Shown in pieces: positions 32,419 through 59,072 of a stretch of DNA of 64,000 bases (position 1 is its first letter; each line of letters starts with the position of its first letter). Both the position numbers and the translations under genes were made by a program. Source of the stretch: Cecembia rubra. Lineage in GTDB: Bacteria > Bacteroidota > Bacteroidia > Cytophagales > Cyclobacteriaceae. The notes beneath the pieces were generated by a model, which saw nothing but the letters and a program-made list of their open reading frames with translations, was not told the origin of the DNA and did no database searches. The stretch is taken from contig NZ_PYGF01000001.1 of NCBI RefSeq assembly GCF_003014575.1, positions 434,001 to 498,000 on the forward strand, given 5' to 3'.

Positions 32419-32449
32419 AAGGGAGGCAAAAGCCTCCCTTTTTTATTTT
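32419..32449 (+). terminator. rho-independent terminator after ytxH
   Basis: AAGGGAGGC (32419-32427) pairs with GCCTCCCTT (32432-32440) around AAAA, followed by TTTTATTTT. Confidence 0.92.
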
Positions 32450-32490: not shown

Positions 32491-32512
32491 AAATACCCCG
32501 AATAGGGTATTT
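32491..32512. promoter_or_regulatory. 22-bp palindromic operator candidate, copy 1
   Basis: AAATACCC, spacer CGAATA, GGGTATTT: a perfect 8-6-8 palindrome centred 76 bp before the ATG of the 184-residue protein gene. It ends exactly 20 bp before a candidate -7 element TACTTTAG (32533-32540). The same half-sites and spacing recur at 35676-35697 before the paralogous gene. The TAC...GTA heptamers separated by 2 bp resemble NarL-type response regulator sites, and the regulator gene next door is of that family. Confidence 0.6.
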
Positions 32513-32577
32513 TTCCCAGTCAAAATTATGGTTACTTTAGATGCTTCATATTCTAAAGATTATTCCCTATTTGAACT

Positions 32578-33132
32578 ATGTTTTCAGAAATTGTATTGCC
32601 ATCTTCGGAATTAGCTGATTTTGTCAAGGGCTATTATTTAGTCAATGTAGAAAACAATGATGAAGAAGCCTGTTTGAATACCTTTGAAACTGGGATATCC
32701 TTAGGTGTTCCCTTAGGAAGGCCTTTTTTCTATTATGCAGGCAAAACTTTGGATGAGTTTGAAGAAGTGCCCTACAAAATTTTTGATAAGCCCTTACTTT
32801 TTTGGGATAGTAAATCAATTGAATGTTTCAGTGTTCTAGGCAATGCTAGGGCTGTTTTTATCGTTTTGACAGACTTAGGAATAGAAATGTTTTTAAATGA
32901 AAGACAACTGGTTTGCTCAGAATCCGTCTTCCCAATCAACAGAATAGGTATTCCGATATTCAATTTGATTGTTAAAAGGAAATTACGCCTCAATCATGAT
33001 AATTTTGAAGGAATAAAGATAATTGAGGATGAATTAATCCGATTTTTTAAAAGATTTTCCAAAGATGGTAGCACAGATGGTAAAATGGAAATTGAACAAA
33101 ACGACAATGGAGGTTTTCCATTTGTTTCCTAA
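32578..33132 (+). CDS. AraC-type sensor-domain-like protein without DNA-binding domain (paralog 1)
   Basis: A 184-residue cytoplasmic protein. It resembles the N-terminal domain of AraC regulators with DUF6597: PSSELADFVKGYYLV, then SLGVPLGRPFFYY, then FIVLTDLGIEMFL and FPINRIGIPIFNLI. The match is by overall pattern and is not strong. There is no HTH: it ends in IEDELIRFFKRF and a loose tail. It is a clear paralog of the gene at 35758 (shared GVPLG-PF, FDKP, G-PIFNL-V, and E-G--I---EL-RFFK). It converges on the response regulator with 13 bp between stops. Function unknown; possibly a ligand or partner sensor for that regulator. Confidence 0.7.
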   Translation: MFSEIVLPSSELADFVKGYYLVNVENNDEEACLNTFETGISLGVPLGRPFFYYAGKTLDEFEEVPYKIFDKPLLFWDSKSIECFSVLGNARAVFIVLTDLGIEMFLNERQLVCSESVFPINRIGIPIFNLIVKRKLRLNHDNFEGIKIIEDELIRFFKRFSKDGSTDGKMEIEQNDNGGFPFVS

Positions 33133-33145
33133 TTTGAGGAACATT

Positions 33146-33778
33146 TCAGGTTTTGTTTTTTGCCATAAGCGCTGCCAATTGAGCTGTATTATTTAACCCA
33201 AGTTTTTGAAGTACATTTCTTCTATGGGTATTAACAGTAAACTGGCTCAAGAACAGCTTTTTAGAAATTTCCTGAGAGGTATAACCTTCAGTAATCAGGT
33301 AGGCAATCTGTTTTTCCCTACTGCTTAAAATGGAAAGCTTTTCATCCTCAGAATTGGAAATGGGCCCCTTTTTAAGTGTTTTTCGCGATGGAATATAAGG
33401 TCTGCCCAACAAAACTTCATCTATTGCTAAAAACAGCTCATTTTTATCAATGGTTTTTGGAAGAAAACCCATGATTCCAAAGGATTTGCAAATTTCAATT
33501 AAATCGGGATGGTCTTCCATAGTTAGAAAAATAATTTTCACCTCAGGTCTTTTTTCGATCATTTTCTGAGCAAGATTTAGACCTTTCCCGTCAGGTAGAA
33601 AGTAATCCAATAACACTAATTCCGGTTTTTTTTCAAGAAATAACTTCCAACCATCATTTAGATTTCCGGTATTACCCAAATAATTGATTTTTTGGTTTTC
33701 TTTTAACATGGAGCGTAGCCCCTGAAGAAAGATCATATGGTCATCAATATGGATCAATCCTACTTTTTTAGCTGTCAT
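33146..33778 (-). CDS. LuxR/NarL-family response regulator
   Basis: A 210-residue two-component response regulator. The receiver domain has the acidic pair IDDH at residues 11-12, phosphoacceptor Asp58 in LVLLDYFLPDGKG, the conserved Thr in IIFLTMEDH and Lys in GFLPKT. The LuxR-type HTH at about 145-205 reads LSSREKQIAYLITEGYTSQEI then FTVNTHRRNVLQKLGLNN. Its start lies 1 bp after the kinase stop, so the two are one operon and very probably one signalling pair. Family members bind palindromic sites such as those at 32491 and 35676; those sites are my suggested targets. Confidence 0.93.
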   Translation of the reverse strand: MTAKKVGLIHIDDHMIFLQGLRSMLKENQKINYLGNTGNLNDGWKLFLEKKPELVLLDYFLPDGKGLNLAQKMIEKRPEVKIIFLTMEDHPDLIEICKSFGIMGFLPKTIDKNELFLAIDEVLLGRPYIPSRKTLKKGPISNSEDEKLSILSSREKQIAYLITEGYTSQEISKKLFLSQFTVNTHRRNVLQKLGLNNTAQLAALMAKNKT

Positions 33779-33779
33779 T

Positions 33780-35603
33780 TTAATTGGATTCGACGGGTAA
33801 TTGTATGATGATGGTTGTTCCGTTTGGATTGGAATCCAGGTTAAATTGCCCCTTTAGGTATGCTACCCTGTTTTTAATATTGGATATTCCGATTCCTCTA
33901 TGCTTATTTTCCAAATCTATACCTATTCCGTCATCTTCTACTATAAGCTCCAATATATTCCCTTTTTGGATAATTTGTAGCATAATTTCTTTTGCCTGTG
34001 CATGTTTTAACACATTCTGGAGTAATTCACTACATATTCTATATACCATCAAAGCCAAATTGGAAGGTATAGGCGTTTTTATCTTATAATAAAAATTTGT
34101 TTTGATGGCATGGTTTTCTTCAATAAACCTGAGCCTGTTTTTTAAAATTGTCTCAAGTCCAAGTTCATTTAAATGTGAAGGAGCAAGGTCATGGCTCAGG
34201 GCTCTGGATTCTTTGATGCTTTCTTTTACCAAACTTTTGAGTTTATCCAAATTCTGGGCCTGATCTATATCCTGTGAAAGTCTATCTGCCAGTATGTAAA
34301 TACTGGCTAGCTGGCCTCCTAAACTATCATGTAAGTCACGTCCAATGCGGGTTCTTTCTTCCTCCTGCACTTGGATCAACTGATCTGCCAGTTCTTTTTC
34401 TTTTTGGATAATTTGAAGGCCAAGTTTTTCCTTTTCTCTTTTAAAATCAGCCGTCCTGCTCGCAAAGGCTGCAGTTATAAAAATTGTTTCACCCAATAAT
34501 GAAAATGCACCTCCAAAATCAAAAATAAAACTGGATGTTCCAAAATATACACCATAATGGTTCAGCTGTGTGAAAATGCTGAAAAGTACCATAATGGATA
34601 TACCAGCTAGATAATAACCAGCGTAGGGCACTTTATTTTGAATTTGACGGATAAGATATGCCAAAACCAGGAAAACCAATAAAATGGAAAGGCCAAAAGT
34701 CAGCTTCAGGAAAAAGATTTTGTCCTGAACAGGTAGTTCTAATTCGTTAATAGATAGTGTTTCCCAAATGAGAAGAAGATGTATGGCAATAAGGATCCAT
34801 ATACTCCACACGAGTATACTTTTTTTATTTTGGGGAGGGAAAAACCTTAATACTAAAATCAAGAAGAACATATTGGTCATAAGATTGAAAAAAGGCCGGG
34901 ATTTTCCTGCCCATCCAATAGATTCTGGCCACAGAAACTGGAAACCAAGTCCCCAATGGCTGATATACCAAAGCATAATGCTGATAATAAAAAGTGCATA
35001 AAATAGAGCTCCTGATTCTTTAAGCTGAAAAGCCGTAAATACTGCAAAAATCAGGATGATGATCATCCAACCTAAGATAAAGCCCAGAAGCAGGTTTTCT
35101 AAAATAGTATTATTTACAAATTCTAACTCACTCATGATGCTAGGTTGTAAAATATTGGTTTCTCCCGACTTGTCCACCAAAAGCAGGATTTCCAATTTTT
35201 GTCCAGGGTCAATTTTTAAAGGTACTATTAGGTCTCTGTTGATAATAGGCCTTTCATAGAATGGATGTCGGTCTCCCAATATCAACTCTGGATAGTCATT
35301 ATTGTCAAAGTAGACTTTCAAAAGGTTGATATGGGGATTTTTCAGGGTAAGATAATAATTGACTTCAGTGTTACTATTGTTCTCAAACTCTGTATAAATC
35401 CACCAAGGAGTAGGGCTTATTCCTTTATTAATAGGCCCAGAACTCTGAGGAAGTGAATCCATAGCCTGCCAGATAAAATTGGCATTCTCACCATGATAAG
35501 GTATTGATTTGTAGGTTAAGCTATCGTCATAGGTACTGTTGCATGATAAAAAAAAATAAGCTAAGAATATAAGGGTCAGGAATTCTTTAAAATTTTTAAG
35601 CAT
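33780..35603 (-). CDS. 7TMR-DISM sensor histidine kinase (HisKA_3 type)
   Basis: A 607-residue membrane sensor kinase. The start at ATG 35603 gives a lipoprotein-like signal (LAYFFLSCNS). A periplasmic 7TMR-DISM extracellular beta domain follows (WWIYTEFENNSN, then strands to about residue 165). Next come seven membrane segments (about 170-390) and a coiled-coil linker. The HisKA_3 box has RIGRDLHDSLGGQLAS with the phosphoacceptor His425. The ATPase motifs are ELLQNVLKHAQA (N box), VEDDGIGID and RGIGISNIKNRV (G boxes). This kinase class pairs with LuxR-type regulators, matching the gene 1 bp downstream. The signal is likely a carbohydrate or other small ligand; this is inferred from the family. 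Confidence 0.93.
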   Translation of the reverse strand: MLKNFKEFLTLIFLAYFFLSCNSTYDDSLTYKSIPYHGENANFIWQAMDSLPQSSGPINKGISPTPWWIYTEFENNSNTEVNYYLTLKNPHINLLKVYFDNNDYPELILGDRHPFYERPIINRDLIVPLKIDPGQKLEILLLVDKSGETNILQPSIMSELEFVNNTILENLLLGFILGWMIIILIFAVFTAFQLKESGALFYALFIISIMLWYISHWGLGFQFLWPESIGWAGKSRPFFNLMTNMFFLILVLRFFPPQNKKSILVWSIWILIAIHLLLIWETLSINELELPVQDKIFFLKLTFGLSILLVFLVLAYLIRQIQNKVPYAGYYLAGISIMVLFSIFTQLNHYGVYFGTSSFIFDFGGAFSLLGETIFITAAFASRTADFKREKEKLGLQIIQKEKELADQLIQVQEEERTRIGRDLHDSLGGQLASIYILADRLSQDIDQAQNLDKLKSLVKESIKESRALSHDLAPSHLNELGLETILKNRLRFIEENHAIKTNFYYKIKTPIPSNLALMVYRICSELLQNVLKHAQAKEIMLQIIQKGNILELIVEDDGIGIDLENKHRGIGISNIKNRVAYLKGQFNLDSNPNGTTIIIQLPVESN

Positions 35604-35649
35604 TTTTACCAAACAAGATTGGTTTAGGGAATTTGTACCTAATTAGGCA

Positions 35650-35657
35650 CTAATATA
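35650..35657 (-). promoter_or_regulatory. candidate -7 element for the kinase-regulator operon
   Basis: Read on the minus strand it is TATATTAG, one mismatch from TAnnTTTG. It lies 18 bp from the nearer edge of the palindrome at 35676-35697 and 46 bp before the kinase ATG at 35603. The palindrome could therefore control both this operon and the paralog gene on the other strand. Confidence 0.4.
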
Positions 35658-35675
35658 AGAAGTAATTCTTTTGAA

Positions 35676-35697
35676 AAATACCCATTTTATGGTATTT
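35676..35697. promoter_or_regulatory. 22-bp palindromic operator candidate, copy 2
   Basis: AAATACCC, spacer ATTTTA, TGGTATTT: the same half-sites and 8-6-8 layout as copy 1 with one mismatched pair. It ends exactly 20 bp before the candidate -7 element TAATTTTA (35718-35725) of the paralog gene, the same distance as at copy 1. It lies between the divergent kinase operon and paralog gene, so it may control both. The left heptamer TACCCAT fits the NarL consensus TACYYMT. Confidence 0.65.
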
Positions 35698-35757
35698 AAA
35701 GTACAGCTAATTATCACTAATTTTAACACTTCAATATTCCTTATTCCCAGCCAATAA

Positions 35758-36306
35758 ATGACCGGTCAAGACTTTTTATTAACCTCCTCTGATTTAAGCG
35801 AATTCGTAACAGGGTTTTTGCATTTTAAAGGAGAATATAAAAGCCCTTATCAAATTCCAATGTATGAAAATAGCTTATGCATAGGAGTTCCTTTGGGAAA
35901 ACCTTTTGACCTGTATTTGGGAGGTAATGATTTAAATGATGAATCCATTTATATTGAATCTTTTGACAAGCCTTATGTGATCAATGCACTCGAGGGAGTA
36001 CATCATATTTGGGTAAGTGGAAATATTAGTTTAGTCATCCCTGTTTTTACCGCTAAAGGGACTGAAATACTGCTTCAGAACTTTGTTATCCATCCTAATC
36101 AAAATATCTATCCCTTATCAAGAAACGGACTGCCAATTTTTAACCTCTTGGTCAGAAAGCAGCTTCGCGGCATACAAAGTGACCAGGAGGGTTTGGAAAT
36201 TGTGGATAAGGAATTAGCGAGGTTTTTTAAGAAGTATATGTCCAAAGAACCGCATTCCAATAATGAAAATGAAAGGATCTTGGGAGAGGAAAAAGAGGTG
36301 TTATAA
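35758..36306 (+). CDS. AraC-type sensor-domain-like protein without DNA-binding domain (paralog 2)
   Basis: A 182-residue cytoplasmic paralog of the 32578 gene. Matching positions are LTSSDLSEFVTGF, CIGVPLGKPFDLY, SFDKPY, FTAKGTEILL, NGLPIFNLLVRKQLR and EGLEIVDKELARFFKKY. Like its relative it has no HTH and ends in a polar tail. It is divergent from the sensor kinase, with the shared palindrome 72 bp upstream of its ATG. The adhesin gene begins 380 bp downstream on the same strand. The conserved arrangement suggests co-regulation with the two-component system. The function itself is unknown. Confidence 0.7.
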   Translation: MTGQDFLLTSSDLSEFVTGFLHFKGEYKSPYQIPMYENSLCIGVPLGKPFDLYLGGNDLNDESIYIESFDKPYVINALEGVHHIWVSGNISLVIPVFTAKGTEILLQNFVIHPNQNIYPLSRNGLPIFNLLVRKQLRGIQSDQEGLEIVDKELARFFKKYMSKEPHSNNENERILGEEKEVL

Positions 36307-36685: not shown

Positions 36686-39600
36686 ATGGAAATTAGAAAA
36701 TCATTAATTTTTAGTTTTTTAGCCTTGGTTTTTATCCTGACAATATTCAGGTTAACCGCTATTGTCGGTACCTCAGGCTATATTTTCCCAAAAATAGCAG
36801 AGGAAGATCCTGTTGCTGATTTTACATTTGATCCTGAAGTCCTATGTGCCGATCAGGCCATAAAATTCACCAATACTTCAACAGGAGATAGTCTCAGCTA
36901 TGAATGGAATTTTGGAGATGGTAAAACTTCAACTTTAAAAGATCCTAGCCATATTTTTTCAACAGTAGCAGGAGGAGGAACTCAAACCTTCAATGTAAAG
37001 CTTACAATAAAAGACAAAAGGGATAGTGTGAGATCCATTACAAAATCTGTCACAGTAAATCAGGTCCCATCTATGGCTGTAGGTTCTGATAAGGGTAGCG
37101 TCGATTTTGAAAACCTTTCTTATTTTATTCTTTGCGAAAACAGTTCTTCTGTTTTTACTTTTTATAACAATTCCACAACAAGAAGTACCAACGTCTTATA
37201 TGAAATTGATTGGGGTGATGGATCAACACCATTTAGTGATTCAGATTGGACAGAGCTTTCCCATGAATACGATAGAGGCATTTATGATATCACTTACACC
37301 ATTACTTCAGCCAATGGCTGTAAATTCACTAAAAAATATGGGGTTTTTGTAGGAGGAAATCCAGCTGTAGGCTTAGGTAATCCGGGAAACACCAATGTTT
37401 GTGTGGGGTCACAACTTACCTTTCCTATCACGGGTACTGAAAATAACCCTGAGGGAACCCGTTATTTTGTGTTCTTTTCTGATGATTTCAACAATCCCCA
37501 AATTTTTGAACATCCTGCTCCTCCAACGGTTACACATACTTTCGGGAGTGGTTCTTGTAGTTTTTTTGCAGATGGTTTCAATAACTCTTTTTCAGTGAGG
37601 ATTATTGCAGTCAATCCCTGTTCTTCATCTGCAGCTACAGTAGTGCCCATATACGTATCTGAAAATCCAAACCCGTTGATTGATCTTCCCAAAGATCCAG
37701 TTTGTAAGGATGTTGCCGTTCAGATCAGAAATAGAAAAGAGGAAGGAAAAGAAGTGGCGACTAATGGGCAATGTTCAGACCCAAGGTTTGTCTGGGAAAT
37801 TTCCCCGGCCACAGGATGGGTATTGGATGGTGGAAGCTTGGGCACCATTAACAATCCAAGCTCCCCTAATTCCTGGGTATCTGGGACAGAGTTTATTTTC
37901 CCAAGATTCACTGAAGCAGGTACATACACGATCAAATTGACAACGGGAAATAGGTGCGGAATCAAATTTAAAGAAGAAACCATTTGTGTAATTCCGGAGC
38001 CTGTTCCTGATTTTCAATTGGACAATATTTTGGTGTGCGCTCCCGATATCGTGGAAGCCACCAATACTTCAAATGTCCTTGGGGCATGTGATCTTGACTT
38101 TTTCCAATGGTCAGTGGCCTATAATGGGGGCAATTGTGGCCCGGGGGCTGATTGGAAATTCGCTGAAGGAAATGCGCAATCTCCCAATGCAAAATTTGAA
38201 TTTATCAATCCTGGAAGATATACCATTACCTTGACTGCCTCTACCTCCTGCGGTACTTTCTCAAAAAGTCAAGAAGTGGTGGTCTCTACACCTCCAATAG
38301 TTGAAATCAACAATATCCAAGATCTTTGTGTCAATGGATCAATTAGTCCAAGTGCTAATGTAAGGGCCTGCGATGATGGGCAAATCAGCTACAAATGGAC
38401 TTTTGAAGGAGGAATCCCCAGCTCTTCCGAAGAGGAGGTTCCAGGACAAATTTTATTTGATAGCCCTGGAGAAAAAATCATTACCCTGGAAGTAAGCTCT
38501 TCCTGTGGAACAACGATAAAAACACAGTCCATCAATGTCAACCCACTTCCTCAAGTAGATGCAGGTGCGGACATTGAGATTTGTGAAGGGGAATCACTTA
38601 CTTTAAATGGGACAGTCTTGCCGGTGGGAAATTACAATTTTCAATGGACAGCTGATCCTGTTTCAAATATTATTGGTGCAAATACCTTAACGCCAACAAT
38701 ATCTCCCCGGGTGAATACCACCTACACCCTGAGGGCAAGAAATACAGTGACAGGCTGTGAGGAATTTGACCAGATAACAGTAACTGTGATACCTGCCCCG
38801 GTGGTGGTTTTTGATATTCCCAATCAGGTAATCTGTTCGGGGGAAAGCACTTTGCCTGTCAATATTTTCTCAGATCCAACAGGAGAGCAAATAAAATGGA
38901 CCGTCAATGGAAACGGAATTGCCGGCCTGAACATTTCAGAAGGGGAGAACCTTATACCCTCTTTTACCTTGGTAAATACCTCCAACTCAGCAATTGAGTT
39001 GGTATTCACTGCCCAGATTGTCAAAGAAGATGCAGGAAACTGTACTTTGACTCCAGGAACTTATGTTATTACCGTAAAACCGGAACCTTCCTTTAAAGAT
39101 GAGACTTTAGAAATATGCAGTGAACAGGACTTTTCTTACATTCCAGAAGGATTTGTTCCCGGCACTACTTTTCTATGGACATCAGCAGCACCTAATGGAA
39201 TCATTGGAAACACCAATAATACCACAGTCCAACAAGCGGCTGTGACTGATAAACTGATCAATGAGACCAATGTTCCTTTAGAGCTGTTATATACCATCAC
39301 ACCCTTCCTTGGCGGTTGTTCCGGTGATCCCTTTCAGTTGAGTGTGACAGTATTGCCATCACCAGTTGTTGATTTTTCAATACCAGATCAGATCATTTGC
39401 ACTGGTGGATTCACCGAAGAAGTAATTATCAGTTCAGATGTAGAAACAGCCCAATTTACCTGGACAGCCATAGCCAATGGAGCATTAGGCGTCATCCCTT
39501 CTGGTGTAGGCAATCTGATACCTGTCCAACAGATTATCAATCCAAGCCAGAATCCAATTATTGTTAGATTTGAGGTCTTTGGTAGCGTATCAGGTGAAAA

Positions 39601-41605
39601 CAGCTGTGCGGGCCTGCCTAAAATTTACCGAATTACAGTCAACCCTTCTATTTCCCTGGTTTCTGAGGTTTCTGATTATTCCGGATTTCAAATCAGCTGT
39701 ACAGGGGCAAATGATGGTTTTATCCGATTGAATCCAAGGGGAGGTAGTGGTAATTATACCTTTACCTGGACTGGACCAAATGGGTTCAAATCCAATCAAA
39801 AAGATATCAACAATTTACCTCCAGGTAATTACAGTGTATTGATCGAAGACGAATTTGGGTGTAGTCTGGAAAAGGATTTTACTTTGGTAGAACCCAGTCC
39901 TTTAGCTGCCGAATTGGCTTCCACCAGGGATATATTTTGTTCTGGAGAGTCAACTGGTCAGATTTTCATCAAAGTTTCAGGTGGAGTCTCAGCATTTCCT
40001 TACCAATTTAACTGGTTTAGAAATGGACAGCCTTTCAATGCCACAGGACAGAATTTAATAGACGTTCCATCAGGAATTTATGAAGTTGAGATAGCTGACC
40101 GGAATGGATGTGTGATTGCTCTTGGACCGATTGAACTCATCCAACCTGAACTCCCATTGGTGATTGGTTTTGAAAAAACAGATATTTCCTGCTATGATGC
40201 CAATGACGGATTTATCAAACTGGATATTCAGGGAGGGGTTCCTCCTTTCCGAATAGCATGGAACAATAATTCCACAAGGGATGAATTGAATAATTTGGGG
40301 CCTGGTAACTATACGGTACAGGTAAGTGATCAGGCAGGATGTGTGAAGACCCAAACCATTATCATAGAGGACGCACCACTTTTCAGAATTCTTCCTGAAG
40401 TGAGGCAAATCTCCTGTTTTGGTAAAAAAGATGGATATATAAAATTGAATTTCGAAGGGGGAGTGGGTAAGCCCATCGTCTTGTGGAATAATGGGGAGGA
40501 TCGAAATGAGTTATTTAACCTAGGTCCGGGCACTTATAGTGTTTTGATAAAAGATGAAACAGACTGTGAGATCCGCAGCACATTCAACATAGTAGAACCG
40601 GCAGAATTGCTGATAGAGCCACAGATATTTGATGCCATCGATTGTATTAATCCTCAAAGTGGATCCATCAATTTAGGAATTTCAGGAGGTAGGCCACCCT
40701 ACACTTATGTTTGGAGCAATGGTCAAACTTCCTCTAATCTCACAAATATTCCTGCAGGCCAATACAATGTGGTAGTAAGAGATGCTTCCGGATGTGAAAT
40801 CAAAGGAACATTTGAAGTAAAAAGACCGGCACCATTAGCCATTACCTCAGTAAGGAGAACCTTTATTGCCTGTGATCCCCGTCTGATTGAAGAAGAAATT
40901 CAGGTCAGTATTTCAGGAGGAGTTGCCCCTTATAGAATTAACTGGTCAGGTGGAAAAGTCTCACAAAACGGTCAGGTCATGAACACAACCAAGGCAGGTT
41001 TATATACGGTACAAATCACCGATGGGGCAGGATGTACAACTACACAGTCTTATGAAGTCAAAAACTTAGATGTGCTTCCTGATTTAGCCATTCAGTCTCT
41101 GGCATTTGATCAGTATAAATCTTACTTGGTGAACTTTGAAATCCAATTCTGGAACAGGTCATTCGGTGAGATAGCTGGGTATTATTGGGATTTTGGGGAT
41201 GGTAATTTCAGTACGGAGGAAAATCCTAAACATTCCTATTTAAAAGAAGGAGAATATGAAGTGATACTTAAAGTCACTGATATATATGGTTGTGTTTCAG
41301 AGGTAAAAAGTAGGATAAAAGTTTTTGACTATTTTCTGGTTATGCCCAATGCTTTTACTCCCAATGGTGATGGAGTCAATGATTATTTCTTTCCAAGATT
41401 TATCAATATCGCTTCATTGGAATTTTGGGTATTAAATAAATGGGGGGAGACAATATTCTACACGGACGACAAAGACTCCAAAGGATGGGACGGTACAGTT
41501 GGGGGCAAAGAAGTCCCAGCTGGAAACTACTTGTACAAGTTGAGCTTTAAGACACTTGATGGGAGAAAGCAGGATAAAACAGAGGTATTCTTATTACTCA
41601 AATGA
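36686..41605 (+). CDS. giant PKD/SprB-repeat surface protein with T9SS type B sorting domain
   Basis: A 1639-residue exported adhesin-like protein. A hydrophobic N-terminal signal (residues 5-30) is followed by a PKD domain (about 44-130, YEWNFGDGKTSTLKDPSH). Several more PKD/Ig-like beta domains with conserved cysteines follow to residue 700. Then come three PKD-like modules (about 705-1000; IPNQVICSGEST and IPDQIICTGGF). Six SprB repeats fill about 1003-1460, then a last PKD (YYWDFGDGNFSTEENPKHSY). The C-terminal domain MPNAFTPNGDGVND ... GGKEVPAGNYLYKL is the type B signal of gliding-associated T9SS cargo. It is overlapped by a PorP/SprF-like gene, the usual partner for type B cargo. The exact function (adhesion, gliding or a polymer) is not shown. 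Confidence 0.93.
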   Translation: MEIRKSLIFSFLALVFILTIFRLTAIVGTSGYIFPKIAEEDPVADFTFDPEVLCADQAIKFTNTSTGDSLSYEWNFGDGKTSTLKDPSHIFSTVAGGGTQTFNVKLTIKDKRDSVRSITKSVTVNQVPSMAVGSDKGSVDFENLSYFILCENSSSVFTFYNNSTTRSTNVLYEIDWGDGSTPFSDSDWTELSHEYDRGIYDITYTITSANGCKFTKKYGVFVGGNPAVGLGNPGNTNVCVGSQLTFPITGTENNPEGTRYFVFFSDDFNNPQIFEHPAPPTVTHTFGSGSCSFFADGFNNSFSVRIIAVNPCSSSAATVVPIYVSENPNPLIDLPKDPVCKDVAVQIRNRKEEGKEVATNGQCSDPRFVWEISPATGWVLDGGSLGTINNPSSPNSWVSGTEFIFPRFTEAGTYTIKLTTGNRCGIKFKEETICVIPEPVPDFQLDNILVCAPDIVEATNTSNVLGACDLDFFQWSVAYNGGNCGPGADWKFAEGNAQSPNAKFEFINPGRYTITLTASTSCGTFSKSQEVVVSTPPIVEINNIQDLCVNGSISPSANVRACDDGQISYKWTFEGGIPSSSEEEVPGQILFDSPGEKIITLEVSSSCGTTIKTQSINVNPLPQVDAGADIEICEGESLTLNGTVLPVGNYNFQWTADPVSNIIGANTLTPTISPRVNTTYTLRARNTVTGCEEFDQITVTVIPAPVVVFDIPNQVICSGESTLPVNIFSDPTGEQIKWTVNGNGIAGLNISEGENLIPSFTLVNTSNSAIELVFTAQIVKEDAGNCTLTPGTYVITVKPEPSFKDETLEICSEQDFSYIPEGFVPGTTFLWTSAAPNGIIGNTNNTTVQQAAVTDKLINETNVPLELLYTITPFLGGCSGDPFQLSVTVLPSPVVDFSIPDQIICTGGFTEEVIISSDVETAQFTWTAIANGALGVIPSGVGNLIPVQQIINPSQNPIIVRFEVFGSVSGENSCAGLPKIYRITVNPSISLVSEVSDYSGFQISCTGANDGFIRLNPRGGSGNYTFTWTGPNGFKSNQKDINNLPPGNYSVLIEDEFGCSLEKDFTLVEPSPLAAELASTRDIFCSGESTGQIFIKVSGGVSAFPYQFNWFRNGQPFNATGQNLIDVPSGIYEVEIADRNGCVIALGPIELIQPELPLVIGFEKTDISCYDANDGFIKLDIQGGVPPFRIAWNNNSTRDELNNLGPGNYTVQVSDQAGCVKTQTIIIEDAPLFRILPEVRQISCFGKKDGYIKLNFEGGVGKPIVLWNNGEDRNELFNLGPGTYSVLIKDETDCEIRSTFNIVEPAELLIEPQIFDAIDCINPQSGSINLGISGGRPPYTYVWSNGQTSSNLTNIPAGQYNVVVRDASGCEIKGTFEVKRPAPLAITSVRRTFIACDPRLIEEEIQVSISGGVAPYRINWSGGKVSQNGQVMNTTKAGLYTVQITDGAGCTTTQSYEVKNLDVLPDLAIQSLAFDQYKSYLVNFEIQFWNRSFGEIAGYYWDFGDGNFSTEENPKHSYLKEGEYEVILKVTDIYGCVSEVKSRIKVFDYFLVMPNAFTPNGDGVNDYFFPRFINIASLEFWVLNKWGETIFYTDDKDSKGWDGTVGGKEVPAGNYLYKLSFKTLDGRKQDKTEVFLLLK
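39692..41070 (+). repeat. six SprB repeats inside the adhesin
   Basis: Each unit is about 70-77 residues with the pattern I-C---(D/N)-G-I-L---GG--PY---W, then LPPGNY-V-I-D-(D/N)GC. The units open at ISCTG, IFCSG, ISCYD, ISCFG, IDCIN and IACDP. The last copies are the most divergent. SprB repeats are known from the gliding adhesin SprB of Flavobacterium. Confidence 0.85.
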
Positions 41606-42627
41606 TAAAAAATTCACAAATCATTTTATTCGTCTTGTATTTCCTTTGTTCCGCAGTATTCGGGCAGGATTTCCATTATTCCCAGTTTTATGCAGCTCCT
41701 TTGTATTTGAACCCTGCAATGGCCGGTAGTACGGAACTCTCTAGGGTGGGTATCAATTACCGAAAACAATGGCCTGGCCTTGCCCATGATTTCAATTCCT
41801 ATTCCGCATATTTGGATCACTATAGTTATGACCTAAGAAGTGGAATGGGTATAGCTGTGAACAGTTTTCAGGAATCCAATATGAGAATCAATACTTCTGA
41901 TGTTTCCTTTTTTTATGCCTATAACCTAAGGTTGTCCGAATCCATGAATTTCAGGATGGGTAGCCAAGTTGGGATATTCAGAAGAAGCACGGCTTTGGAT
42001 AACATCCTATTTGGTGATCAGATAGACTTGTTCAATAGAACGGTGAATCCCACTTCCATTGATGATATTCCAAATTTTGAACCTTATACCTACCTGGATA
42101 TTTCTTTTGGAGGATTGCTTACAGGAGAGACCTTTTGGTTGGGGGCATCAGCCCACCATGTCAACCGGCCTAATCTCAGTTTTTTTCCGGACAATGAAAT
42201 CGGTTACCTTCCCGTTAAATGGAGTGTGCACGGTGGTTATACCATTCCTTTGGGAACAAATGATTACTTCGGTTCCAAATTTGACAATCAGGTTTCTATA
42301 TTGCTCAATTATAAAAACCAGGGGCCTTTTCGGCAGTTGGACATAGGTTCACAGTTTATGTACAAAAATGTGATTTCAGGAATCGGTTATAGGGGTATTC
42401 CAGGGGTGAGGAGTATGCCCAACCAGGACTCCATTATTTTCCTATTGGGTTTGGCCTTGGAAAATGGTATGGTTATCGGTTACAGTTATGATTTCATGAT
42501 TTCTAATGTAGGTACACAGACCAGGGGAGCCCATGAAATTTCTTTGCGCTACCAATTTTTGATGGGCGATCCCAGAAAAAGAAACCAGAGAAGCAGGGTC
42601 TTGCGCTGTTTTGATTATATGATGTAA
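41602..42627 (+). CDS. PorP/SprF-family T9SS outer-membrane protein
   Basis: A 341-residue outer-membrane beta-barrel of the PorP/SprF group, which assists secretion or anchoring of T9SS type B cargo. The signal peptide ends SAVFGQ. The family opening FHYSQFYAAPLYLNPAMAG and VGINYRKQWP is clear, and the C-terminal strands end GYSYDFMISN and SLRYQF. The start codon overlaps the adhesin stop by 4 bp (ATGA), so translation is coupled. This linkage matches known SprB-SprF and similar type B cargo pairs. Confidence 0.93.
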   Translation: MIKNSQIILFVLYFLCSAVFGQDFHYSQFYAAPLYLNPAMAGSTELSRVGINYRKQWPGLAHDFNSYSAYLDHYSYDLRSGMGIAVNSFQESNMRINTSDVSFFYAYNLRLSESMNFRMGSQVGIFRRSTALDNILFGDQIDLFNRTVNPTSIDDIPNFEPYTYLDISFGGLLTGETFWLGASAHHVNRPNLSFFPDNEIGYLPVKWSVHGGYTIPLGTNDYFGSKFDNQVSILLNYKNQGPFRQLDIGSQFMYKNVISGIGYRGIPGVRSMPNQDSIIFLLGLALENGMVIGYSYDFMISNVGTQTRGAHEISLRYQFLMGDPRKRNQRSRVLRCFDYMM

Positions 42628-47604: not shown

Positions 47605-47644
47605 ATCAATAAAAAATACCACTTTTGTGGTATTTTTTATTGAT
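47605..47644. terminator. perfect 18-bp stem hairpin, terminator or operator
   Basis: Arms 47605-47622 and 47627-47644 are perfect inverted copies around loop TTTT, with T-rich 3' and A-rich 5' arms. Its core AAATACCA, 6 bp, TGGTATTT repeats the 8-6-8 layout of the palindromes at 32491 and 35676. It follows the COG2509 flavoprotein stop by about 110 bp and fits a bidirectional terminator. A regulator-binding site is the alternative. Confidence 0.55.
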
Positions 47645-47743
47645 GGTGAATTACCGATATTTACGTCAGTGTTTGTGCTTTGAATAAGCTATTTAAACAA
47701 CATAGAGAGAACCAGCACTTTTTTTGAACTTACACTTGAAACT

Positions 47744-47771
47744 ACCGGATCCATTTAGGATCCGGTTTTTC
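47744..47771 (+). terminator. rho-independent terminator
   Basis: ACCGGATCC (47744-47752) pairs with GGATCCGGT (47758-47766) around ATTTA, then TTTTC. It lies about 250 bp after the flavoprotein stop, so it may end a transcript that runs past the first hairpin. Confidence 0.75.
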
Positions 47772-58884: not shown

Positions 58885-58956
58885 GGTCGATTCGTCTAGG
58901 GGTTAGGACGCATCCCTTTCACGGATGAAACACGGGTTCGATTCCCGTATCGACTA
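58885..58956 (+). tRNA. tRNA-Glu (anticodon TTC), copy 1
   Basis: A cloverleaf is readable: acceptor arms GGTCGAT and ATCGACT (G1 pairs with T72), D-arm with GGGGTTAGGA, anticodon arm CATCC / GGATG with loop CTTTCAC giving anticodon TTC, T-arm ACGGG TTCGATT CCCGT. CCA is not encoded. The 72-nt length allows a very short variable region. Confidence 0.95.
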
Positions 58957-58958
58957 CT

Positions 58959-58993
58959 GAAAACACTGGAAAACTTTCAGTGTTTTCTTTTTG
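58959..58993 (+). terminator. hairpin between the two tRNA-Glu genes
   Basis: GAAAACACTG (58959-58968) and CAGTGTTTTC (58978-58987) form a perfect 10-bp stem, followed by TTTTTG. It looks like a terminator located between two identical tRNAs; partial read-through or RNA processing are alternatives. Confidence 0.7.
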
Positions 58994-59000
58994 AAATAGA

Positions 59001-59072
59001 GGTCGATTCGTCTAGGGGTTAGGACGCATCCCTTTCACGGATGAAACACGGGTTCGATTCCCGTATCGACTA
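59001..59072 (+). tRNA. tRNA-Glu (anticodon TTC), copy 2
   Basis: Identical in sequence to copy 1 over all 72 positions, beginning 44 bp after it. It uses the same TTC anticodon. No separate promoter is visible in the 44-bp spacer, so it depends on read-through of the hairpin or on an unrecognised promoter. Confidence 0.95.

Follow-up and report, generated by a model that had tools for sequence, protein, structure and literature searches.

A palindromic element at fixed spacing from a −7-like box recurs upstream of paralogous genes, candidate small RNAs and other targets in Cecembia rubra and related Cyclobacteriaceae

A 64,000-nucleotide stretch of the Cecembia rubra genome (assembly GCF_003014575.1, contig NZ_PYGF01000001.1, positions 434,001 to 498,000; hereafter the window) carries two closely similar 22-bp palindromes, each located upstream of one of two paralogous genes. 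We found that this palindrome is a recurrent element. It lies at one fixed distance from a −7-like promoter box, is spread through many genomes of the family, is conserved upstream of the paralogs in relatives, and has a shared set of targets that includes a family of candidate small RNAs (sRNAs). The explanation that fits best overall, in which we place moderate confidence, is that the palindromes are family-wide NarL-type class II elements that define a shared regulon, with the regulator being either the window's own or another paralog. Below, compared genomes are labeled G, genera g, contigs of the C. rubra genome C, and loci L, each followed by a number.

Two palindromes precede paralogous genes at the same distance from −7-like boxes

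The features upstream of the two paralogs are as follows.

32491..32512, no strand assigned: palindrome 1, AAATACCC-CGAATA-GGGTATTT
32533..32540, plus strand: −7-like element TACTTTAG, 20 bp 3′ of palindrome 1, with 5/6 fixed bases of TAnnTTTG
32578..33132, plus strand: paralog 1, 184 amino acids (aa), start codon at 32578, without a helix-turn-helix (HTH) domain
35676..35697, no strand assigned: palindrome 2, AAATACCC-ATTTTA-TGGTATTT, in the divergent gap between a kinase gene and paralog 2
35718..35725, plus strand: −7-like element TAATTTTA, 20 bp 3′ of palindrome 2, with 5/6 fixed bases of TAnnTTTG
35758..36306, plus strand: paralog 2, 182 aa, start codon at 35758

TAnnTTTG is the −7 element of main-sigma promoters in Bacteroidota. 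A first-pass annotation of this DNA had reported both palindromes and a 20-bp gap to a TAnnTTTG-like box, and the positions, letters and spacing are borne out in each case. Its description of the palindromes as identical was overstated, given that the two differ in the central bases and in one arm base. Both fit the pattern AAATACC-N8-GGTATTT. Palindromes with three or fewer mismatches occur three times in the window versus 0.53 expected, and 2 of 100 shuffled sequences reach three. The YtxH-like gene farther upstream has an intrinsic terminator, GGGAGGC-AAAA-GCCTCCC-TTTTTT (32421..32446, plus strand; recognized in the sequence by eye), that sets it apart from palindrome 1.

The spacing of 20 bp is exact across the genome

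A genome scan for the palindrome, which the first-pass annotation had proposed as a check, reveals AAATACC-N8-GGTATTT at 15 places, whereas the reversed control pattern occurs at none. These 15 exact copies were picked blind to any promoter, and yet 11 have a match of at least 5/6 to TAnnTTTG exactly 20 bp away on one strand, 7 of which are perfect. At other distances between 0 and 80 bp, the number of such −7-like matches averages 0.31 and never exceeds 2 (binomial P ∼4e-16 for 20 bp). A main-sigma-type −7 box is thus found at a fixed distance from an upstream element. In contrast, the TTG of a −33 box was not found; the right arm of the palindrome fills the −33 place and reads TATTTTT in most sites, and GGTATTG occurs in other families of the order. 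When a 50-bp pattern was searched with up to three mismatches, the C. rubra genome yielded 29 rows versus 2 control rows, corresponding to 25 distinct places by hand count.

The element is widespread in the family and conserved upstream of both paralogs

The promoter pattern TACC-N8-GGTA-N23-TANNTTTG has matches in 171 of the 390 family genomes and none in genera g57 and g65. The reversed control matches ∼40 genomes (hand count), and therefore some single pattern matches are due to chance. Across the order, for which 241 genomes were searched, the pattern with AAA/TTT flanks and up to one mismatch is present in 53, against a single control match overall. Although the flank was not required in selecting 32 sites from genus g82, its three left positions are A in 94–97% of them, and 88% of these sites have C at position 5 of the left heptamer. 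A scan of GTDB genomes for exact matches returned at least 116 stretches, and Bacteroidota account for 78 of the 80 matches listed by name. In genomes beyond the family, the arms are different and so, apparently, are the downstream genes, and for this reason we do not claim a single regulator for the phylum. Among the matches listed in a search of open-license literature, only the short AAATACCC was found of the motif strings, and we make no claim that it is new to the literature.

Conservation around the paralogs supports the earlier proposal that they are coregulated. Palindromes precede both genes in the same-genus genome G053 and also in G073, and three of the four have a passing −7-like box at 20 bp. 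In G053, AAATACCCTTTTTATGGTATTT precedes paralog 2 with TAATTTTA at 20 bp, and AAATACCCTGTATGGGGTATTT precedes paralog 1 with only TATCTTGA (4/6, below the cut) at this distance. The paralogs of G073 are adjacent with no regulator between them, and each has its own palindrome and −7-like box at 20 bp; a third palindrome precedes a DISM-type kinase gene. The window-type palindrome was not found near the gene for distant relatives of the paralogs in G097, G039, G021 and G043. Three of these four distant relatives have a different palindrome, of the TACTACTTTGGTAGTA kind, in front of the gene (by eye). This type lies upstream of a 176-aa gene in L033, L034 and L036, where the paralog relatives neighbor another response regulator.

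A family of candidate sRNAs begins just downstream from the element

In 18 loci representing at least six genera (g1, g2, g27, g41, g64 and g82), a motif starting GGGTGATT, and mostly GGGTGATTAAGC[AG]A[CT]TTTT, begins 32 or 33 bp downstream from the palindrome and 4–5 nucleotides (nt) past the −7 box. One weaker copy in C. rubra has the motif at 31 bp, giving a total of 19 of the 31 motif loci listed at 31–33 bp. A terminator was identified by script for 13 of 20 motif copies, predicting an RNA of 76–96 nt for 9 of these 13; none meeting the cut was found for the other 7. The sequences sharing this 5′ end are probably sibling sRNAs, and the candidates in the C. rubra genome are listed below.

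L182, 3012: sibling sRNA candidate with shared 5′ end GGGTGATT
L183, 2350: sibling sRNA candidate, same 5′ end
L189, 2713: sibling sRNA candidate, same 5′ end
L181, 2463: sibling sRNA candidate, same 5′ end
L190, 2413: sibling sRNA candidate, same 5′ end

Because most of the loci were fetched by their palindrome, the association between sRNA and palindrome is biased. An unbiased figure comes from the C. rubra genome, where the promoter accompanies three of the four exact copies of the motif GGGTGATTAAGCRA; C9:29912, the fourth, shows TATATTTG without a palindrome. Inspection of two of the three copies with one mismatch (C1:107120 and C18:50213) also failed to reveal the promoter. Four C. rubra sRNA loci were searched against Rfam and gave no match at gathering scores, and no fitting paper on Cyclobacteriaceae sRNAs was found in the open-license literature.

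Two other recurring sequences were seen behind the element. A second conserved short-transcript candidate, TAGAGTTTCTCTA...AGTGTTTAAGTTCAAATAAGGGTTA, is present in C. rubra (L188, 2664) and in G001 (L426, 821), and a related 484-aa gene adjoins it in both genomes. A further recurring leader that begins CACGGTTTTTTGATA is found in L421, L428, L429 and L434, representing four genomes and three genera.

A third site in the window may be the start of a short RNA

A third copy of the palindrome, absent from the list of the first-pass annotation, is located between convergent genes.

47614..47635, no strand assigned: palindrome 3, AAATACCACTTTTGTGGTATTT
47656..47663, plus strand: −7-like sequence GATATTTA (4/6), 20 bp 3′ of palindrome 3
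47664..47770, plus strand: candidate short RNA of ∼105 nt, with CCGGATCC-ATTTA-GGATCCGG-TTTTT as its terminal hairpin

Palindrome 3 and its 20-bp spacing are kept in G053, which has the similar, likewise weak GAAATTTA at the −7-like position, and parts of the ∼100 bp that follow, up to CCGGATC, are conserved in that genome as well. From its sequence, the site may be either the start of a short RNA or the terminator of the plus-strand gene.

Protein-coding and phage-defense-like genes lie behind or near other copies

A Cys-rich protein of ∼78 aa (MKFFYLSS... type) is encoded behind the element in C. rubra and, among 30 loci fetched from g82, in 16; in another 6 of these 30 its place is taken by a protein of 83–84 aa of the MIIQT type (hand counts). 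LuxR-type two-component operons constitute another target. Such an operon follows the element at C15:78154 in C. rubra, where the regulator has a GerE domain by Pfam, and the same operon, judged by sequence, does so in G204 and G217. In G053, a further copy precedes a second pair of DISM kinase and GerE regulator genes (HK2-RR2).

Sites on contigs C19, C10 and C14 of C. rubra are near genes with PADLOC matches to type IIG and type I restriction-modification, SLATT, NsnB/HEC-03 and MkoA. One site in G043 directly precedes Gabija (GajA, 1e-154; GajB, 4e-209), and another site in this genome has SIR2 and TIR-NLR genes at a greater distance downstream. Similarly, HEC-01, type III restriction and HEC-05 genes are located downstream from a site in G040. 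The defense proteins were chosen by eye, and the association consists of examples rather than an enrichment figure. PADLOC gave no match for 4 of the 19 proteins scanned (404 and 274 aa in L172, 336 aa in L173 and 364 aa in L187). Cassette-like phage-defense arrays in which the element recurs were seen in L120, L121 and L297 of G043, in L291 and L293 of G040, and in L172–L175 of C. rubra. A G043 site lies within a repeated junction composed of a terminator, the promoter and a hairpin-forming leader with better folding than shuffled sequences.

The element resembles NarL sites in sequence and possibly in position

Excerpts of one report (PMC4549865) give TACCCCTAAAGGGGTA as an engineered 7-2-7 site for Escherichia coli NarL, and place NarL 7-2-7 sites at −40 to −49 for napF and −38 to −47 for yeaR. 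The first-pass annotation had pointed to a likeness with sites of this type, which holds for site 1, whose inner 16 bp are identical to TACCCCTAAAGGGGTA at 13 positions. The corresponding values for sites 2 and 3 are 10/16 and 11/16, with inverted TACCCnn-like heptamers separated by a 2-bp gap. A score of 13/16 is the maximum in the window and 10/16 is common, and thus only site 1 stands out from background.

With the first G of GGGTGATT taken as the start of the sRNAs, the palindrome would extend from −54 to −33, which puts its center at −43.5. The class II-type placement suggested previously is supported. Occupation of the −33 place by the right arm is what would be expected of activator-dependent promoters. 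The resemblance to NarL sites, the predicted center and the occupied −33 place make a NarL/LuxR-type response regulator our first choice of class; activation and a signal are likewise inferred.

In the explanation that we favor, both window palindromes would be copies of a family-wide promoter element, TACCCnn-2-nnGGGTA inside AAA/TTT flanks, centered ∼43.5 bp before the transcription start. The element would replace the −33 box, with the main-sigma −7 box exactly 20 bp farther on, and a NarL/LuxR-type response regulator would bind it as a dimer and activate transcription from a class II position. The regulon would include the two paralogs, perhaps the kinase-regulator pair between them, the sibling sRNAs, the Cys-rich protein, LuxR-type two-component operons and some phage-defense loci. 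The regulator could be the window's own or, at least as likely, a paralog with wider conservation, for example the 208-aa regulator encoded on C15.

Several observations weigh against this explanation. The 10/16 NarL score of site 2 is reached 163 times in the window. The regulator class is assigned from site likeness and placement, and a 22-bp frame with AAA/TTT flanks fits Crp/Fnr proteins equally well in geometry. Moreover, 4 of the 15 exact copies lack a −7 box of at least 5/6 at 20 bp. Three of these have a 4/6 match, namely L008, L012 and the third copy in the window (L004); the other is L011, which lies within an open reading frame. Finally, orthologs of the window's regulator fail to track the sites, and three genomes have no strong site beside the ortholog, as detailed in the next section.

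The arrangement is similar to that of NarL at napF and yeaR, where the excerpts likewise describe inverted heptamers with a 2-bp gap, and the letters TACCC...GGGTA match those of the engineered narG site. It differs in that C. rubra belongs to another phylum, the promoter is of the −7/−33 type, there are additional AAA/TTT flanks, the site is predicted, and no tie to nitrate is evident among the targets.

GacA is a LuxR-type regulator, and the GacS/GacA system with RsmY and RsmZ is the nearest parallel for how the element might work. In that system, a LuxR-type regulator acts through an upstream palindrome in front of sibling sRNAs, as may be the case here, where several short, terminator-ended predicted RNAs with shared sequence lie behind one palindrome. 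However, the half-sites differ: partial text of PMC4353343 gives the palindromic upstream activating sequence as TGTAAGCATTCTCTTACA before rsmY and TGTAAGCATTCGCTTACT before rsmZ. In addition, the site described here would be centered near −43.5 and adjoins the −7 box, and the likeness drawn here is one of layout.

The adjacent regulator is not supported as the regulator of the sites

The first-pass annotation had named as the probable regulator the response regulator encoded between the two paralogs. The relevant features are listed below.

33146..33778, minus strand: response regulator, 210 aa, receiver and GerE domains (NarL/LuxR type)
33780..35612, minus strand: sensor kinase, up to 610 aa (TTG start), 7TMR-DISMED2, 7TMR-DISM and HisKA_3 domains
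35648..35655, minus strand: weak −7-like sequence TATTAGTG (4/6), exactly 20 bp from palindrome 2

In this alternative, the adjacent regulator would be a dedicated activator of both paralogs and would regulate its own gene via palindrome 2, an arrangement that we consider possible but unlikely. Its gene lies between the paralogs in both C. rubra and G053, and palindrome 2 is in the divergent gap, where TATTAGTG is a possible promoter of the kinase-regulator pair. The promoter pattern is also present in all 16 of the family genomes that have a close ortholog (E ≤ 1e-42). The claim for this protein as the regulator is nevertheless unsupported, since the pattern matches 155 of the 374 genomes without a close ortholog. 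Within g82, hand counts give matches in 11/11 genomes with an ortholog and in 36/50 without, and the positive association may reflect shared ancestry.

Site-rich genomes argue against the adjacent regulator. G043 (18), G165 (13) and G040 (11) lack a close ortholog, and the pattern matches in G043 (18), G040 (11), G039 (9) and G047 (8), all without one, are not chance. The genera g2 and g21 are each represented by two genomes in a 98-genome set; one of each pair (G001 and G020) has no close ortholog, yet these have 4 and 5 matches, respectively. Conversely, no strong site was found in the 8–12 kb around the ortholog in G026, G082 and G096. In G085, the divergent gap on the far side of the kinase gene contains a palindrome, and the GATGTTTG located 20 bp from it faces away from that gene. 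A plasmid search with the window regulator returned only matches below 60% identity. The operon of the 208-aa C15 regulator carries the element in C. rubra and in two genomes of g41, a genus without a close ortholog of the window regulator. Judged from these sequences, the C15 protein is a candidate at least as good as the window regulator.

Crp/Fnr proteins and terminators are weaker explanations

A Crp/Fnr-family activator that recognizes the 22-bp palindrome and acts from a class II position is, in our estimation, rather improbable. Crp/Fnr sites usually hold a GA core, which the TACCC half-site lacks. The geometry is more favorable. Partial texts of two papers propose the motif wwwTATGTTnTAnAACATAwww for the Bacteroides Crp protein BT4338 and describe a putative −7 box at fusA2 (PMC3878776, PMC6989115). 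The element shares this 22-bp frame, including a dyad with an N6 center and A/T flanks, and the BT4338 (Cur) regulon thus offers another case of a 22-bp palindrome plus a −7 box in Bacteroidota. However, the half-site is TATGTT there and TACCC here, and the targets in those texts are sugar-use genes rather than sRNAs.

The distribution of candidate proteins points both ways. We collected 60 Crp/Fnr loci from 16 genomes and compared them by BLASTP (two loci overlap; most frames of ∼355–366 aa over the Pfam cut-off were left out). Strong relatives of each of two Crp/Fnr groups occur in all eight site-rich genomes examined, but site-poor genomes also have lower-scoring homologs, 5/8 for the first group (≥150 bits) and 8/8 for the second (≥158 bits). 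At up to two mismatches, the palindrome is absent from all 60 loci.

It is very improbable that the palindromes are intrinsic terminators (A-tract, hairpin and T-tract), some of them bidirectional: Several copies, that at 47614 among them, are located between convergent genes and do carry A and T tracts, but 5 of the 15 form perfect dyads without loop bases, and a −7 box at exactly 20 bp would be needless for a terminator. For sites 1 and 2 we rejected this reading on the basis of the divergent gap (site 2), the separate upstream terminator (site 1) and the spacing statistics.

The paralogs may be sensor halves

The two paralogs share 33% identity, and searches of both against Pfam and NCBIfam gave no family match. 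By Pfam, the combination of DUF6597 and an AraC HTH is absent from the paralogs and from three relatives scanned. DUF6597 and HTH_18 were found in two longer proteins of other genomes, one of them below the DUF6597 cut-off. G097 encodes such longer proteins beside paralog relatives, as does G096 in the vicinity of the regulator ortholog, and paralog 2 weakly finds those of G097 and G043 (E 4e-5 and 1e-4). The paralogs are perhaps akin to the DUF6597 half of these AraC-type neighbors. Because the relatives have neighbors of this kind, which paralog 2 weakly finds, the paralogs may be sensor halves without the DNA-binding half. An AlphaFold model of paralog 1 from a two-row alignment has a mean pLDDT (predicted local distance difference test) score of 44.

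Elsewhere in the window, a gene for a 1639-aa PKD/SprB protein with a type IX secretion tail and, after it, a PorP/SprF gene (36686–42627) are located downstream from paralog 2. A tandem pair of tRNA genes with equal scores is present at 58885–59072.

Implications for regulation in Cyclobacteriaceae

To our knowledge, few regulons have been established in Bacteroidota from outside the gut. An exactly spaced element in many genomes provides a handle on one such network, as it predicts an sRNA family that is unmatched in Rfam for the loci searched and names target genes. The case of the neighboring regulator illustrates that proximity alone is a weak guide to which regulator is involved.

The element may also link two-component signaling with phage-defense loci. 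In a broader scenario, which we regard as speculative and on balance doubtful, a single LuxR-type two-component system, conserved in Cyclobacteriaceae-like bacteria, would drive the sibling sRNAs, the Cys-rich protein, the sensor-only pair and phage-defense cassettes. It would do so through a movable module comprising the palindrome, 20 bp and the −7 box, carried by the repeated junctions of cassette-like arrays, such that new defense genes would join the regulon on arrival.

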